Assembly: GCA_025210175.1 (NCBI GenBank)
Contig: JAOASF010000205.1
Location: 1-37,637 of the forward strand
Length of the DNA: 37,637 nucleotides
Reading direction: 5' to 3'
Origin: Crocinitomicaceae bacterium
Lineage (GTDB): Bacteria > Bacteroidota > Bacteroidia > Flavobacteriales_D > Crocinitomicaceae
Positions within the stretch are counted from its first letter, which is position 1; the number at the start of each line of letters is the position of its first letter. Shown here one piece after another: positions 25,657 through 29,386 of this stretch. The notes below the pieces were generated by a model. It did no database searches. It worked only from the letters and a program-made list of their open reading frames with translations, and was not told the origin of the DNA. A program made the translations under genes and the position numbers.

Positions 25657-26301
25657 GTGAATTTATTGAATACCATTTTTATCATAGGTGTTATCCTAGC
25701 CATTTTTGGTTTTATATGGGGACTGATTCGAATTGGACTAATCCTCTTGTTTCCTCAATTTAACAAAGAAGTTACCTCTCAATATTTTTTGCGAGGAGTT
25801 CAATATTTGTTTCTGATCCAAACCACCTTTATATTCCTCACGGAGGATGAGTCGAGGCTATCACTTGAAGCCAGTTCATTGGTTATCACCGGTCTACTCC
25901 TGATCTTTTTCTTCCTATCCAAACTGCAGCGCAGACAGCAGCAGCAAATGATGTTTCAGTTTATACAAAATGGTCAGAATTTCATGCAAAATGCTTTCAA
26001 CCCCAAGGCGGAAAGAATTTTGATCCTATTTGGTTGTGCCGTTTTTACCGCTTTGGTTTTCTATCCAGAACTAGCATATTCTCCCATTACAAGATGGCTA
26101 CACGAATCGATTATTGGAATTGAGGACACGCCCATTATCGGCTTTATTTTTCGAGTAATCGGATTCTTTTTCTTGATGAGTGTAATTGGCAAAACGATCC
26201 AATCCATTCGACAGATAATAAGTGGCAAACAAAAGGGTCCTGCACTTGAAGAACCTACCAAGGGCGAGGATGAATTCGACGATTACGAGGAAATTAAATA
26301 A
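25657..26301 (+). CDS. Integral membrane protein of unknown function
   Basis: I do not recognise this 214-residue protein. It has about five hydrophobic segments (roughly 5-30, 45-62, 70-90, 120-140 and 165-183), a glutamine- and phenylalanine-rich amphipathic stretch after the third (RRQQQQMMFQFIQNGQNFMQN), and an acidic C-terminal tail (KGEDEFDDYEE). The start is a GTG with no in-frame ATG nearby that keeps the first TM segment. It overlaps the convergent coaE gene by 8 nt. No motif suggests a function. Confidence 0.68.
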   Translation: MNLLNTIFIIGVILAIFGFIWGLIRIGLILLFPQFNKEVTSQYFLRGVQYLFLIQTTFIFLTEDESRLSLEASSLVITGLLLIFFFLSKLQRRQQQQMMFQFIQNGQNFMQNAFNPKAERILILFGCAVFTALVFYPELAYSPITRWLHESIIGIEDTPIIGFIFRVIGFFFLMSVIGKTIQSIRQIISGKQKGPALEEPTKGEDEFDDYEEIK

Positions 26302-26860
26302 GCTGAGTCAGTAAGCGGTTAACTTGTGGAATAAGGGCTTGGACTTCGTCATTGTAAACAACGAAGGAGGCAAATTTTTCTTTTTTTTCATCACTCCACT
26401 GATTGTTCATGCGCAATTCCACTTCTTCCCTACTGATGGAATCTCGTTTCATTGTTCTTTGCAAGCGCATTTCTAGGGGAGAAACAACGAGAATAGTGTA
26501 ATCCATTTGTTGGTAGAGGCCGGTTTCGAAGAGGATAGCTGCTTCGTTGAACACCTTTCCCGAATTTGCTTCGAGCCGATGAAATGCTTGGCGCACGCGA
26601 GGATGCACAATAGCATTAAGCCCATCCTTTAAGCTCGGATTGGTAAAAACCTGGTTCGCGACGAAGGGTACATTGTACACCCCGTCCACAAAGGCGTTTT
26701 CTCCTAGGAGATGAACTATTTCTTCCCGAACCTCAGAATCTGTTTGGATTATTTTTTTGGCTTCAAGGTCAGAGTAAAACACTCGATATCCCATTGACTC
26801 CAGTATTCTAGAAACAGTTGATTTACCTGAACCAACTCCTCCTGTAATACCAATTTTCAT
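26294..26860 (-). CDS. coaE: Dephospho-CoA kinase
   Basis: Phosphorylates the ribose 3'-OH of dephospho-CoA, the final step of coenzyme A synthesis, in the cytosol. At 188 residues it is slightly short but complete. The P-loop GGVGSGKST is at the N-terminus, DLEAKKIIQ is the conserved segment after it, HPRVRQAF holds the family His-Pro, and the lid region QRTMKRD carries the catalytic and binding Arg residues. It is last in a unit with the SiaC-like and SiaB-like genes, starting 5 nt after the former's stop. Its end overlaps the convergent membrane-protein gene. Confidence 0.96.
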   Translation of the reverse strand: MKIGITGGVGSGKSTVSRILESMGYRVFYSDLEAKKIIQTDSEVREEIVHLLGENAFVDGVYNVPFVANQVFTNPSLKDGLNAIVHPRVRQAFHRLEANSGKVFNEAAILFETGLYQQMDYTILVVSPLEMRLQRTMKRDSISREEVELRMNNQWSDEKKEKFASFVVYNDEVQALIPQVNRLLTQLI

Positions 26861-26865
26861 AAGTT

Positions 26866-27249
26866 TTAAATCTCCTCTACCTCAATCATATTGAAAGGCA
26901 GGCCGATGATAGCTTGGTAATCCTCTCCTGCTTCTTCCATGTCTTCGTCGTCTTCCTCAAAATACCAGTTCACTTTTACGCTAGTACCCGATCCGTTCAT
27001 GGACTCTAGTTTCTTGAACAAGTCCAGGATACACTTGGAAGAGGAAGTATTGAAGTACTCCAATTTGATTTCCACCACCGTTTCTCCTTTTGGATTTTGT
27101 GCATAGGAATCTATCCACTCATTGAGTGGTTGGTAAAACTCTACTGAGTTCTCGGGGATTGATCTACCTTTTAACTCTATTAATCCCGCTTCAGAGTTAA
27201 AATTTACTGTAGGGGTTTTGGCTGAACCTTCAATTAGCAAATTTTCCAT
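26866..27249 (-). CDS. SiaC-family regulatory phosphoprotein (DUF1987)
   Basis: A 127-residue partner-switch protein. The family member SiaC of Pseudomonas aeruginosa is phosphorylated on T68 by SiaB, dephosphorylated by SiaA, and in the unphosphorylated state binds and activates the diguanylate cyclase SiaD. Here the conserved motif LEYFNTSSSKCILDLF places a threonine exactly at T68. The following acidic insertion (FEEDDEDMEEAGEDY) is common in the family. The SiaB-like gene lies 12 nt upstream and coaE 5 nt downstream. No SiaD-like GGDEF or SiaA-like PP2C gene is in the window, so the target is unknown. Confidence 0.88.
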   Translation of the reverse strand: MENLLIEGSAKTPTVNFNSEAGLIELKGRSIPENSVEFYQPLNEWIDSYAQNPKGETVVEIKLEYFNTSSSKCILDLFKKLESMNGSGTSVKVNWYFEEDDEDMEEAGEDYQAIIGLPFNMIEVEEI

Positions 27250-27261
27250 TTCTTCTACTCT

Positions 27262-27822
27262 TTAATCTATCTTAACATTCAAACAAAAAAATCGGATATC
27301 CTCATTCACTTCCACAAATTCGTATTCCAATTTATTACCCGATTTTCTCGCTATATCTATCATTCCTAACCCTGCTGTTCCTTTTGCAGAGATGCTACCA
27401 TCGCTCAACACTTCCTGATAATAGCTTTTCAACTCGTCTTTTGACATTCCATTGATGGAGTCCAATCGTTTCTGTAGATTCTCGGCATCCGCTTTATCGA
27501 GATAATTGCCTGTTTTGATAAAAAAACTTTCTTCTCTTCTAGCAATCATGAATAGGGCCGACTTGGCTTCTATTAGTCCACTGTTTCGCGTAGCCTCTGT
27601 ATCATCAATGTCAATGTGATGATATAGGTTTTGCAGACATTCAACCAAAACATTGAACACCTTTTTCTTCGTTCTTGGAGCTTCATCCATATAAGTCAAT
27701 TTTGATTCCATGATTTGAAGCACCGAAGACAGCAAGTCGGACGTCACAACACCTTTGAAAGAAAGAATAATATTCTCCGTTTCCAGTGTTTTGAATAAAT
27801 TATATATGTTGGACAGCGGCAT
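27262..27822 (-). CDS. SiaB-family protein kinase
   Basis: A 186-residue protein resembling SiaB, a GHKL-fold kinase that phosphorylates SiaC. The ATP-binding N-box-like segment is VLVECLQNLYHH, with E61 and N65, and the G-box-like segment is KGTAGLGMIDIARKSG at about 147-162. There is no sensor or membrane segment, so the signal must come through a partner. It is first in the siaB-like/siaC-like/coaE unit, 20 nt after a TAATTTTG promoter element, and divergent from the methyltransferase gene. Pairing with a SiaC-like gene strengthens the call. Confidence 0.85.
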   Translation of the reverse strand: MPLSNIYNLFKTLETENIILSFKGVVTSDLLSSVLQIMESKLTYMDEAPRTKKKVFNVLVECLQNLYHHIDIDDTEATRNSGLIEAKSALFMIARREESFFIKTGNYLDKADAENLQKRLDSINGMSKDELKSYYQEVLSDGSISAKGTAGLGMIDIARKSGNKLEYEFVEVNEDIRFFCLNVKID

Positions 27823-27841: not shown

Positions 27842-27849
27842 CAAAATTA
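27842..27849 (-). promoter_or_regulatory. -7 promoter element TAATTTTG of the siaB-like operon
   Basis: A match to TAnnTTTG with a TTG 17 nt upstream as a plausible -33 box, 20 nt before the ATG at 27822. A second near match (TATCTTTA) lies between it and the start. Confidence 0.55.
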
Positions 27850-27915
27850 GGTTCTCAAACGAAAAGCAATATTTTTTTGAACCCCTCTTTTGGATTTTAT
27901 TTTCAGTAAAACACG

Positions 27916-27923
27916 TAATTTTG
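27916..27923 (+). promoter_or_regulatory. -7 promoter element TAATTTTG
   Basis: A match to TAnnTTTG, 6 nt before the methyltransferase ATG at 27930, predicting a near-leaderless mRNA. A TTTG lies 23 nt upstream, slightly far for a -33 box. Confidence 0.5.
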
Positions 27924-27929
27924 CGAGCT

Positions 27930-28673
27930 ATGAATTCCAATGAATGGTTTGCTTCGTGGTTCGATACAGAGTACTATCATTTGCTCTACAAAGATCGAGA
28001 CTTTGAAGAAGCAAGGCATTTTATCGACAACCTTGTTCACCATCTCGCTATTAAGCCGCAGGCGCGGGTTTTGGATTTGGCGTGTGGCAAAGGTCGACAT
28101 GCACAAACCTTGAGCGAGCACAACCTACAGGTCTTAGGTGTTGATTTATCCGAACAAAGCATTCTAGAGGCAAAAAAGATGGAGTCGAAAAACCTAAGTT
28201 TCAAGGTTCACGATATGCGCTATTCCATCGAAGGAGAAAAATTCGACTACATTTTTAATTTGTTTACCTCTTTTGGCTATTTCGATGAAGAAGAAACCAA
28301 CCTTGAGGTGCTCAAAAATGTAAATGGGATGCTCCGCTTTAACGGCACCTTCATTTTCGACTTTTTGAATTCCAACTTTTGCATCCAATCGATTGTTCCC
28401 CAAGAGGTAAAGGAAGTAGAAGGAATTCATTTCGATATTCGCCGAAAGTTTGACGGAAAGTATATTCGCAAAGAAATTGACGTTATCGACCACGGAAAAA
28501 CTTACCATTTTGAAGAAAAAGTAAGAGCCTACTGTTTCCAGCAATTGCATGAATTATTGGAAAAAAGTGGATTCACAGTTGTGTCTCTATTCGGATCTTT
28601 TGACCTTGATGAGTTTGAGGAAGCATCTTCTGAAAGAGCAATTTTCATTTGCAAACGTACCTCAGATCTATGA
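27930..28673 (+). CDS. Class I SAM-dependent methyltransferase
   Basis: A 247-residue Rossmann-fold methyltransferase. Motif I is VLDLACGKGRHAQTL at about 47-61, the acidic residue of motif II is in VLGVDLSEQS, and the motif IV region FDYIFNLFTSFGYF is where small-molecule enzymes place the substrate pocket. The substrate is not evident. A TTG three codons upstream is a possible start but overlaps the promoter element, so the ATG is used. Its TGA overlaps the ATG of the ZIP gene (ATGA), so the two are translationally coupled. Confidence 0.88.
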   Translation: MNSNEWFASWFDTEYYHLLYKDRDFEEARHFIDNLVHHLAIKPQARVLDLACGKGRHAQTLSEHNLQVLGVDLSEQSILEAKKMESKNLSFKVHDMRYSIEGEKFDYIFNLFTSFGYFDEEETNLEVLKNVNGMLRFNGTFIFDFLNSNFCIQSIVPQEVKEVEGIHFDIRRKFDGKYIRKEIDVIDHGKTYHFEEKVRAYCFQQLHELLEKSGFTVVSLFGSFDLDEFEEASSERAIFICKRTSDL

Positions 28674-29386
28674 TGTGGACTTCTATTTTTTGGCTATTGC
28701 TTTCGGTTGTTCTCGGAGGTTTATTTGTAACGATCCTACAGAAAAACAAAGCTTCTTTTATCAAGTTAATGTTGGCCTTTAGTGGAGGTTTTTTGCTGTC
28801 CATGGCCTTCATTCACTTTGTTCCCGAGCTGTACGAGGAGAACCAGGAAAAAATTGGGATTTTCATCTTGGTTGGATTTTTGGTTCAATTGGTTCTCGAG
28901 TTCTTTTCAGGGGGGATTGAACATGGACACATTCATCACCACGGACCCAAAAAATTGCCCATCGCCATGTTGCTATCCTTGTCTGTACATTCCTTTATTG
29001 AAGGTATTCCTCTCGGTTCGGCAGATTTGGCTCACGAGGTACACGGACATTTGTCTGGTAGTAATTCCTTGCTGATGGGAATTCTTTTTCATCAATTTCC
29101 TGTTGCAATCGCCCTAATGACCTAGTAGAAGGAAACGAATCTGAGTAAGACCAAGGCTTGGTTTTGGCTAATGTTGTTTGGAATTATGACACCACTCGGG
29201 ATGTTGTTTGGTGCGGGACAAAATAGCATTCAATTTGATTTCTCTATTGTGATGGCGATCGTTGTGGGTATGTTCTTACATATTTCCACCACCATTATTT
29301 TTGAAACGAACGAAAATCACAAATTCAACTTGGCCAAGTTGTTAGCCATCCTTTGTGGATCGGCCATTGCCATCGTTTTACACTAA
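28670..29386 (+). pseudogene. ZIP-family metal transporter interrupted by two in-frame TAG codons
   Basis: The intact frame would encode about 238 residues with eight TM segments. Before the interruption are TM1-3, a histidine-rich loop (EHGHIHHHG), TM4 with the metal site HSFIEGIP and TM5 with HQFPVAIALMT. Then TAG TAG occurs at 29123-29128. The same frame continues without any shift as KETNLSKTKAWFWLM and on through TM6-8 to a TAA at 29384. Both stops sit where leucines would fit (each is one base from TTG). TAG is a genuine stop elsewhere here (hemH and the SGNH gene), so truncation after TM5 is expected. A recent pseudogene, a sequencing or assembly error, or readthrough are the options. 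The start overlaps the methyltransferase stop. Confidence 0.82.

Follow-up and report, generated by a model that had tools for sequence, protein, structure and literature searches.

A predicted SiaB–SiaC partner switch in a Crocinitomicaceae genome without detectable GGDEF proteins, and an ABC-2 exporter as its candidate target

The window analysed here is a stretch of 37,637 nucleotides (contig JAOASF010000205.1, assembly GCA_025210175.1) from a Crocinitomicaceae bacterium of the Bacteroidota, and it carries the genes siaB, siaC and coaE head to tail on the minus strand. In Pseudomonas aeruginosa, the unphosphorylated form of SiaC is the one that binds SiaD (PMC7278518), and in the papers found on it, PMC8457831 among them, SiaC (DUF1987) is presented as activator of one diguanylate cyclase. 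For the window we favour, with modest confidence, a SiaABC-type partner switch that operates without cyclic di-GMP (c-di-GMP), of which the SiaB–SiaC core is encoded here and for which an ABC-2 exporter is the most probable target. The candidate exporter gene lies on another contig, hence outside the view of the first-pass annotation of this DNA. More tentatively, and at somewhat less than even odds, we propose that the diguanylate cyclase has been exchanged for the exporter: SiaC, set by SiaB and by sensor-bearing PP2C phosphatases, would directly gate a TerB-FHA-like-ABC-2 exporter with conserved lipoprotein-like and secreted-type neighbours. This would hold throughout an order of Bacteroidia, some members of which have the switch beside a CheA/CheR/CheB-type cluster.

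The window genome (G000; 3.25 Mb, 217 contigs, 93% complete) was compared with an order sample of 199 genomes, 66 of which form the window's family, and with a phylum sample of 198 genomes, together with 80 named loci that are the best 80 of 165 relatives. These genomes are related and not independent, so that the counts given below overstate independence.

The SiaB–SiaC pair without a diguanylate cyclase

The three genes occupy positions 27822-26294, with gaps of 12 nt between siaB and siaC and of 5 nt between siaC and coaE. The gene siaB (27262..27822, 186 amino acids) reaches 159.2 bits on NF038262, “SiaB family protein kinase” (cut-off 85, 7e-47), matches PF19788 at 1e-41 and aligns with the solved SiaB of P. 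aeruginosa (6kko_A) at an E-value of 4e-14. The product of siaC (26866..27249, 127 amino acids) reaches 152.3 bits on Pfam PF09345 (cut-off 24.5, 5e-45). On the equivalog models of the P. aeruginosa proteins, both stay below the cut-offs (SiaB 84 bits against 225, SiaC 99.8 against 150), which sets them apart from the SiaABCD system of that species. The name SiaC is also used for a sialidase in the literature.

Window SiaC aligns with the solved P. aeruginosa SiaC over residues 1-120 without gaps (E 8e-17), with N67-T68-S69 in register. Its AlphaFold model (predicted local distance difference test, pLDDT, 88.8) is closest to 6kko, 6k4f, 6kkp and 7e6g, with template modelling (TM) scores of 0.84-0.87 by query length and 0.87 for 6kko; RsbV (6m36) follows far behind the SiaC structures at 0.5. 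T68, the presumed phospho-acceptor, is encoded by an ACT codon at 27046..27048 (minus strand) and is the first residue of helix 2 (68-84) in the model; the same threonine is present in 48/48 coaE-linked and 28/28 other SiaC rows of this locus type. In a selection of 29 aligned SiaB rows, P. aeruginosa included, residues E61, Q64, N65, G105, N106 and G153 are invariant in all 29; by homology, SiaB is the predicted kinase of SiaC. Thus the first-pass annotation, which had paired a kinase-like with a phosphoprotein-like gene in one operon with coaE and had placed the acceptor threonine at T68, was borne out on both counts.

No GGDEF match at E ≤ 0.01 was found in the 93%-complete window genome, which holds one SiaB and one SiaC. 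Across the order sample SiaC is present in 172/199 genomes, whereas GGDEF was detected at E ≤ 0.001 in seven, four of them above the family cut-off, and SiaD therefore cannot be the usual output of SiaC in this order. In the phylum sample 13/198 genomes carry SiaC, eight together with GGDEF and five without; in five of those eight, GGDEF is represented by a single weak match (E about 1e-13 to 2e-11). The canonical arrangement, a GGDEF gene directly after siaC, was seen in two of three SiaC-bearing genomes of family f27.

As for SiaA, the window genome has seven SpoIIE/PP2C matches, all on contigs other than that of the window. One, of 410 amino acids, has SpoIIE as the only domain seen by Pfam and resembles in size and score the best match in most genomes listed. 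Two of about 650 amino acids show no further Pfam domain, one carries Y_Y_Y, one carries REC and PAS domains (REC-PAS-PAS), and the last two, one of them with GAF, are half matches, one at an end of contig C41 and the other at an end of C184, that probably belong to a single gene. At most about 15 candidates were scored per genome in this search, so that a count of 15 means at least 15. The number of SpoIIE matches follows SiaC: in the family, two or more occur in 39/39 genomes with a SiaC at E ≤ 1e-32 (“canonical” here, a cut chosen after seeing the table) and exactly one in each of the 27 others, which comprise 11 with a divergent SiaC above that E-value and 16 without SiaC. Throughout the order, two or more occur in 160/172 genomes with SiaC against 2/27 without, and contrasts within genera g107, g108, g110 and g156 are consistent with this co-occurrence. 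Of 17 regions retrieved around the paralogous siaB/siaC modules of four genomes, nine have an adjoining SpoIIE gene.

The extra SpoIIE proteins are most simply taken to serve SiaC, and the SiaA function would probably be supplied by them in trans. The one SpoIIE that is left over may serve a separate, full-length HATPase_c_2 protein (PF13581), which all eight genomes searched for it contain, G000 among them. We also note that the 11 genomes of family f1 with a divergent SiaC, mostly of genus g2, retain it despite their single SpoIIE match, and that a natural fusion of phosphatase and kinase occurs upstream of siaC at one locus (L209:7162-9039), where a single protein of 625 amino acids combines a receiver, a SpoIIE and a SiaB-type (DUF6272) domain.

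In the window itself, a Pfam scan of the nine proteins at 23.4-30.8 kb revealed neither a diguanylate cyclase nor a PP2C gene, in agreement with the first-pass annotation. Its description of a switch without visible SiaA or SiaD holds genome-wide for SiaD and is not supported for SiaA, and the survey of GGDEF and PP2C genes that it proposed gave the same divided answer, GGDEF being mostly missing in the order while SpoIIE/PP2C co-occurs with SiaC. Its suggestion of an output other than SiaD in Bacteroidota is supported by the GGDEF counts. In sum, the observation was right and the interpretation half right.

An ABC-2 exporter as candidate target

In loci without coaE, a convergent gene downstream of siaC encodes an exporter of some 1,020-1,050 amino acids with ABC_tran and ABC2_membrane parts. 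Among the named loci it follows siaC in 21/33 without coaE and in 0/47 with coaE. Both parts were seen in one chain in L048, L166, L184, L215 and in the window genome's own copy (L213), which is 46-49% identical to the siaC-adjacent copies in L048 and L184 and is partial, a contig edge having removed the TerB part at its 5′ end. The best NCBIfam similarity, far below the cut-off, is to “pigment precursor permease”, a family that we take to be of ABCG type. Residues 1-250 are predicted to form a TerB-like helical domain and a beta domain (pLDDT 80.8). TerB PF05099 scores 26.8 bits in L215 (cut-off 24.4) and 22.0, below the cut-off, in L048, and is not listed for L166 and L184; the structural neighbours of the beta domain are mostly FHA chains, with Z of 6-7.5 and Foldseek E-values no lower than 0.006. 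No PDB chain was matched by sequence with the exporter N-terminal profile. A likeness between a TerB helix of the exporter and the SiaC-binding stalk residues of SiaD, as listed in PMC8457831, was noted by eye; when the stalk of a relative of SiaD was searched against the PDB, no chain of SiaD was matched.

With a profile of the N-terminal part (A1, presence at E ≤ 1e-5), the exporter was found in five of the 198 genomes of the phylum sample, G000 (partial), G045, G049, G146 and G186, which are exactly the genomes with SiaC and without GGDEF; the N-terminal part was found in 0/8 genomes with both SiaC and GGDEF and in 0/185 without SiaC. A further genome, G076, belongs to family f8, as do three of the five exporter genomes, and has neither SiaC nor the exporter. 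Across the order the exporter occurs in 142/172 genomes with SiaC against 1/27 without.

The two genes are also repeatedly neighbours. By eye we picked at least 42 same-contig pairs of siaC and exporter, 40 adjacent and two 3-4 kb apart, with at least 36 convergent cases beside siaC in families f2, f42, f46, f40 and f43 and at least four co-directional cases in families f1, f44 and f41. A complete set in the order SpoIIE-siaB-siaC-exporter on one strand is found in L215 and L216 (family f8, of another order of the same class) and in G352, G202, G321 and G295, the last with two siaB genes. In the co-directional sets SiaC has N-T-A in place of N-T-S (7/7 rows), so that the exporter stands beside two SiaC types; the deep branches of the SiaC tree are weak. 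Two further proteins accompany the exporter at five loci, each of a different family: a lipoprotein-like one of about 300 amino acids, homologous in all five, and a small secreted-type one, homologous in four.

In the mechanism that we propose, SiaB would phosphorylate SiaC at T68, as expected by homology, and the phosphate would be removed by SpoIIE/PP2C phosphatases from other parts of the genome, several of which carry sensor domains (Y_Y_Y, REC-PAS-PAS, GAF); gene counts and profiles suggest that several inputs converge on one SiaB/SiaC pair. SiaC would bind its target according to phosphate, most probably at the TerB and FHA-like N-terminus of the single-chain ABC-2 exporter, and the binding would set export of a cell-surface component, as exclusive co-occurrence and repeated adjacency suggest. 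Either phospho-SiaC or free SiaC could be the binding form, and the FHA-like domain could read phosphothreonine. In this family coaE would share the transcript and would not be the regulated target.

A number of observations weigh against the exporter and against the phosphatase assignment. The exporter was not detected in 30/172 SiaC-bearing genomes of the order. Six of the 39 family genomes with a canonical SiaC lack a detectable exporter, so that a second output or losses must exist, and G366 has siaB-siaC-coaE and no exporter. Twelve of the 33 named loci without coaE show no exporter beside siaC, two of these (L094, L099) having too little DNA after siaC to show either gene. In the window's own family, among the matches listed, an exporter beside siaC was found only in G352 and at one paralogue of G295. 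Position 69 differs (S or A) between the two exporter-linked SiaC types, whose binding need not be identical, and the FHA-like assignment of the beta domain, at the structural scores given above, is suggestive and no proof. On the side of the phosphatases, the clean split within the family becomes 39/50 with two or more SpoIIE when any SiaC is counted, and most SiaC-less members belong to one genus, the shared descent inflating the counts. Individual genomes depart from the pattern: G275 (genus g154) has four SpoIIE and the exporter with no SiaC found, G227 has two SpoIIE with no SiaC found, and G318 has SiaC and no SpoIIE.

The exporter-less genomes favour an alternative that we hold less likely: SiaC without c-di-GMP would act on another partner or partners, for instance stalk-helix proteins or a transcription regulator, and the exporter would be an old syntenic neighbour that was lost together with it. 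Consistent with this, most paralogous SiaC regions fetched have no adjoining exporter, and in other classes small unannotated or very long proteins follow siaC (L209-L212). Against it, the exporter was never seen without SiaC in the phylum sample and only once among the 27 SiaC-less genomes of the order, and its convergent and co-directional arrangements involve two SiaC types and span two orders; control of the exporter by SiaC remains our preferred reading.

Chemosensory-type genes stand beside some of the SpoIIE-siaB-siaC-exporter sets, namely CheA, CheR and CheB in L166 (G295), CheB in L215 (G049) and a receiver-domain gene in L214 (G352), and a chemosensory-type cluster may feed a SiaC switch there. 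The number of SiaC matches rises to 12 to 14 per genome in G295, G362 and G364, a large expansion in one genus. Two SiaC paralogues from two genomes (L171:6202-6621, L178:6369-6770) have isoleucine at the T68 position (YFNISSSK) and are not phosphorylatable there; they lie near a gene of about 755 codons (aconitase in L171) and another of about 285.

coaE and other neighbours of the locus

The third gene, coaE (26294..26860, minus strand), encodes a dephospho-CoA kinase of 188 amino acids (104 bits on TIGR00152, cut-off 65.6, 8e-30; PF01121 2e-37). Among the 80 named loci, siaB is upstream of siaC in 76. In 47 of them siaC is followed by a coaE gene of the same orientation, and the median distance between the two is about 10 nt. 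In 29 order loci, the best-scoring ones only, coaE is present in 19/19 of the window's family and in 0/10 of other families; its linkage, which the first-pass annotation had singled out for a conservation check, is thus conserved within the family and was not seen outside it among these loci.

This linkage is what speaks for control of CoaE, by which coenzyme A (CoA) synthesis would follow the phospho-state of SiaC, as the first-pass annotation had considered. We regard such control as improbable. We compared the 14 positions at which P. aeruginosa SiaC touches SiaD, as given in section 8 of PMC8457831, using 73 of the 80 named loci (the other seven have no SiaC in the table of open reading frames). 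Thirteen of the 14 carry the same residue in 48 coaE-linked SiaC proteins, the window included, and in 28 unlinked ones, position 10 alone varying. Linked and unlinked SiaC therefore probably share one partner, an argument against CoaE. CoaE itself leaves little room for an added binding domain, since the Pfam model covers residues 2-172 and TIGR00152 residues 3-175, and in G352, of the same family, the sole SiaC adjoins the exporter, and no coaE was seen at that locus. CoA as the output was rejected on the near-constant contact surface and on a linkage seen in one family only, and coaE is, judging from these comparisons, probably a passenger of the transcript.

In L052, siaB-siaC is followed by a same-strand NusB gene and other genes, with coaE about 3 kb on, possibly an earlier stage of the siaC-coaE linkage. 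The record L050 (CP034120.1), titled Glaciecola amylolytica, has siaB-siaC-coaE in the gene order of Crocinitomix and Fluviicola records; this title and those of several metagenome-assembled genomes (Chryseobacterium, Actinomyces, Kuenenia) look mislabelled.

Upstream of siaB, about 20 nt before the gene, lies a promoter-like site TTG-N17-TAATTTTG (27842..27869, minus strand), matching what we take to be the Bacteroidota promoter consensus. The window holds the pattern six times and simple shuffles hold it 4.0 times on average, with no clear excess, and its placement alone is suggestive. Beyond it, a class I methyltransferase gene (27921..28673, plus strand; PF13649 8e-14) diverges from siaB and is a conserved neighbour, divergent in 72/80 named loci; as far as known it is outside the switch. 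The ZIP transporter gene that follows (28670-29383, plus strand) has two consecutive in-frame stops near 29123-29128 and is otherwise 69% identical in frame to its counterpart in L032, which indicates a broken gene or an assembly error.

Control of the surface-polysaccharide genes at 29.4-37.5 kb, the other output that the first-pass annotation had considered, has only proximity in its favour and is very improbable: of the eight genes, the rarest is found in none and the commonest in 18 of 80 related flanks (at most 10 kb long, many shorter), against the near-constant siaB, and the locus was rejected as the output since the linkage is not conserved among relatives. Scarcely credible is a canonical SiaABCD system with SiaD in the missing 7% of this fragmented assembly, given the scarcity of GGDEF across the whole order and its absence from the four other phylum-sample genomes of this class that carry SiaC.

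Comparison with known partner switches

RsbW/RsbV/RsbU-type switches combine a kinase, a STAS-like phosphoprotein and a SpoIIE phosphatase. The same kinds of component are found here, and the SiaC model resembles RsbV to the extent given above; however, SiaC and SiaB families replace STAS and HATPase_c_2, and the full-length PF13581 protein is a separate one in the same genome.

Among the closest systems is SiaABCD of P. aeruginosa (PMC7278518, PMC7647112, PMC8457831), which shares the SiaB kinase beside SiaC, T68 in register, the fold and the presence of SpoIIE-type phosphatases. The window genome differs in that GGDEF is not found, the phosphatases are unlinked and several, and coaE follows siaC. 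At the contact surface, Y65, N67, T68 and S69 are kept, whereas D79, R103 and D114 of P. aeruginosa are replaced by K, D and I in the window. Positions 79 and 103 also depart from P. aeruginosa in three SiaC proteins of family f27, of which two are encoded next to a GGDEF gene, so that the changes in the window are by themselves no proof of a new partner. The authors of the SiaC structure suggest that other DUF1987 proteins modulate adjacent proteins (PMC8457831). The same source names HsbA/HsbD and BgrV/BgrR, which are likewise partner switches, with STAS-type output proteins, but whose targets are diguanylate cyclases, absent here.

On the side of the exporter, a known parallel is PknF-Rv1747 of Mycobacterium tuberculosis (PMC3908365; PMC5549992), in which genetic evidence connects a Ser/Thr kinase with a putative ABC exporter that has FHA-type domains. 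In our case the kinase is of the SiaB family, would act on the exporter through SiaC, a small phosphoprotein, and a TerB-like domain precedes the FHA-like one. A literature search on SiaB/SiaC with ABC transporter, Bacteroidota, Crocinitomicaceae or TerB-ABC gave no description of this system among the matches listed.

An order in which 172 of 199 genomes carry SiaC, and four a GGDEF protein above the cut-off, now has a named and testable candidate for the replacement target. If the proposal is true, partner switches of this kind would exert direct control of export, and annotators should not infer c-di-GMP signalling from the presence of SiaC.

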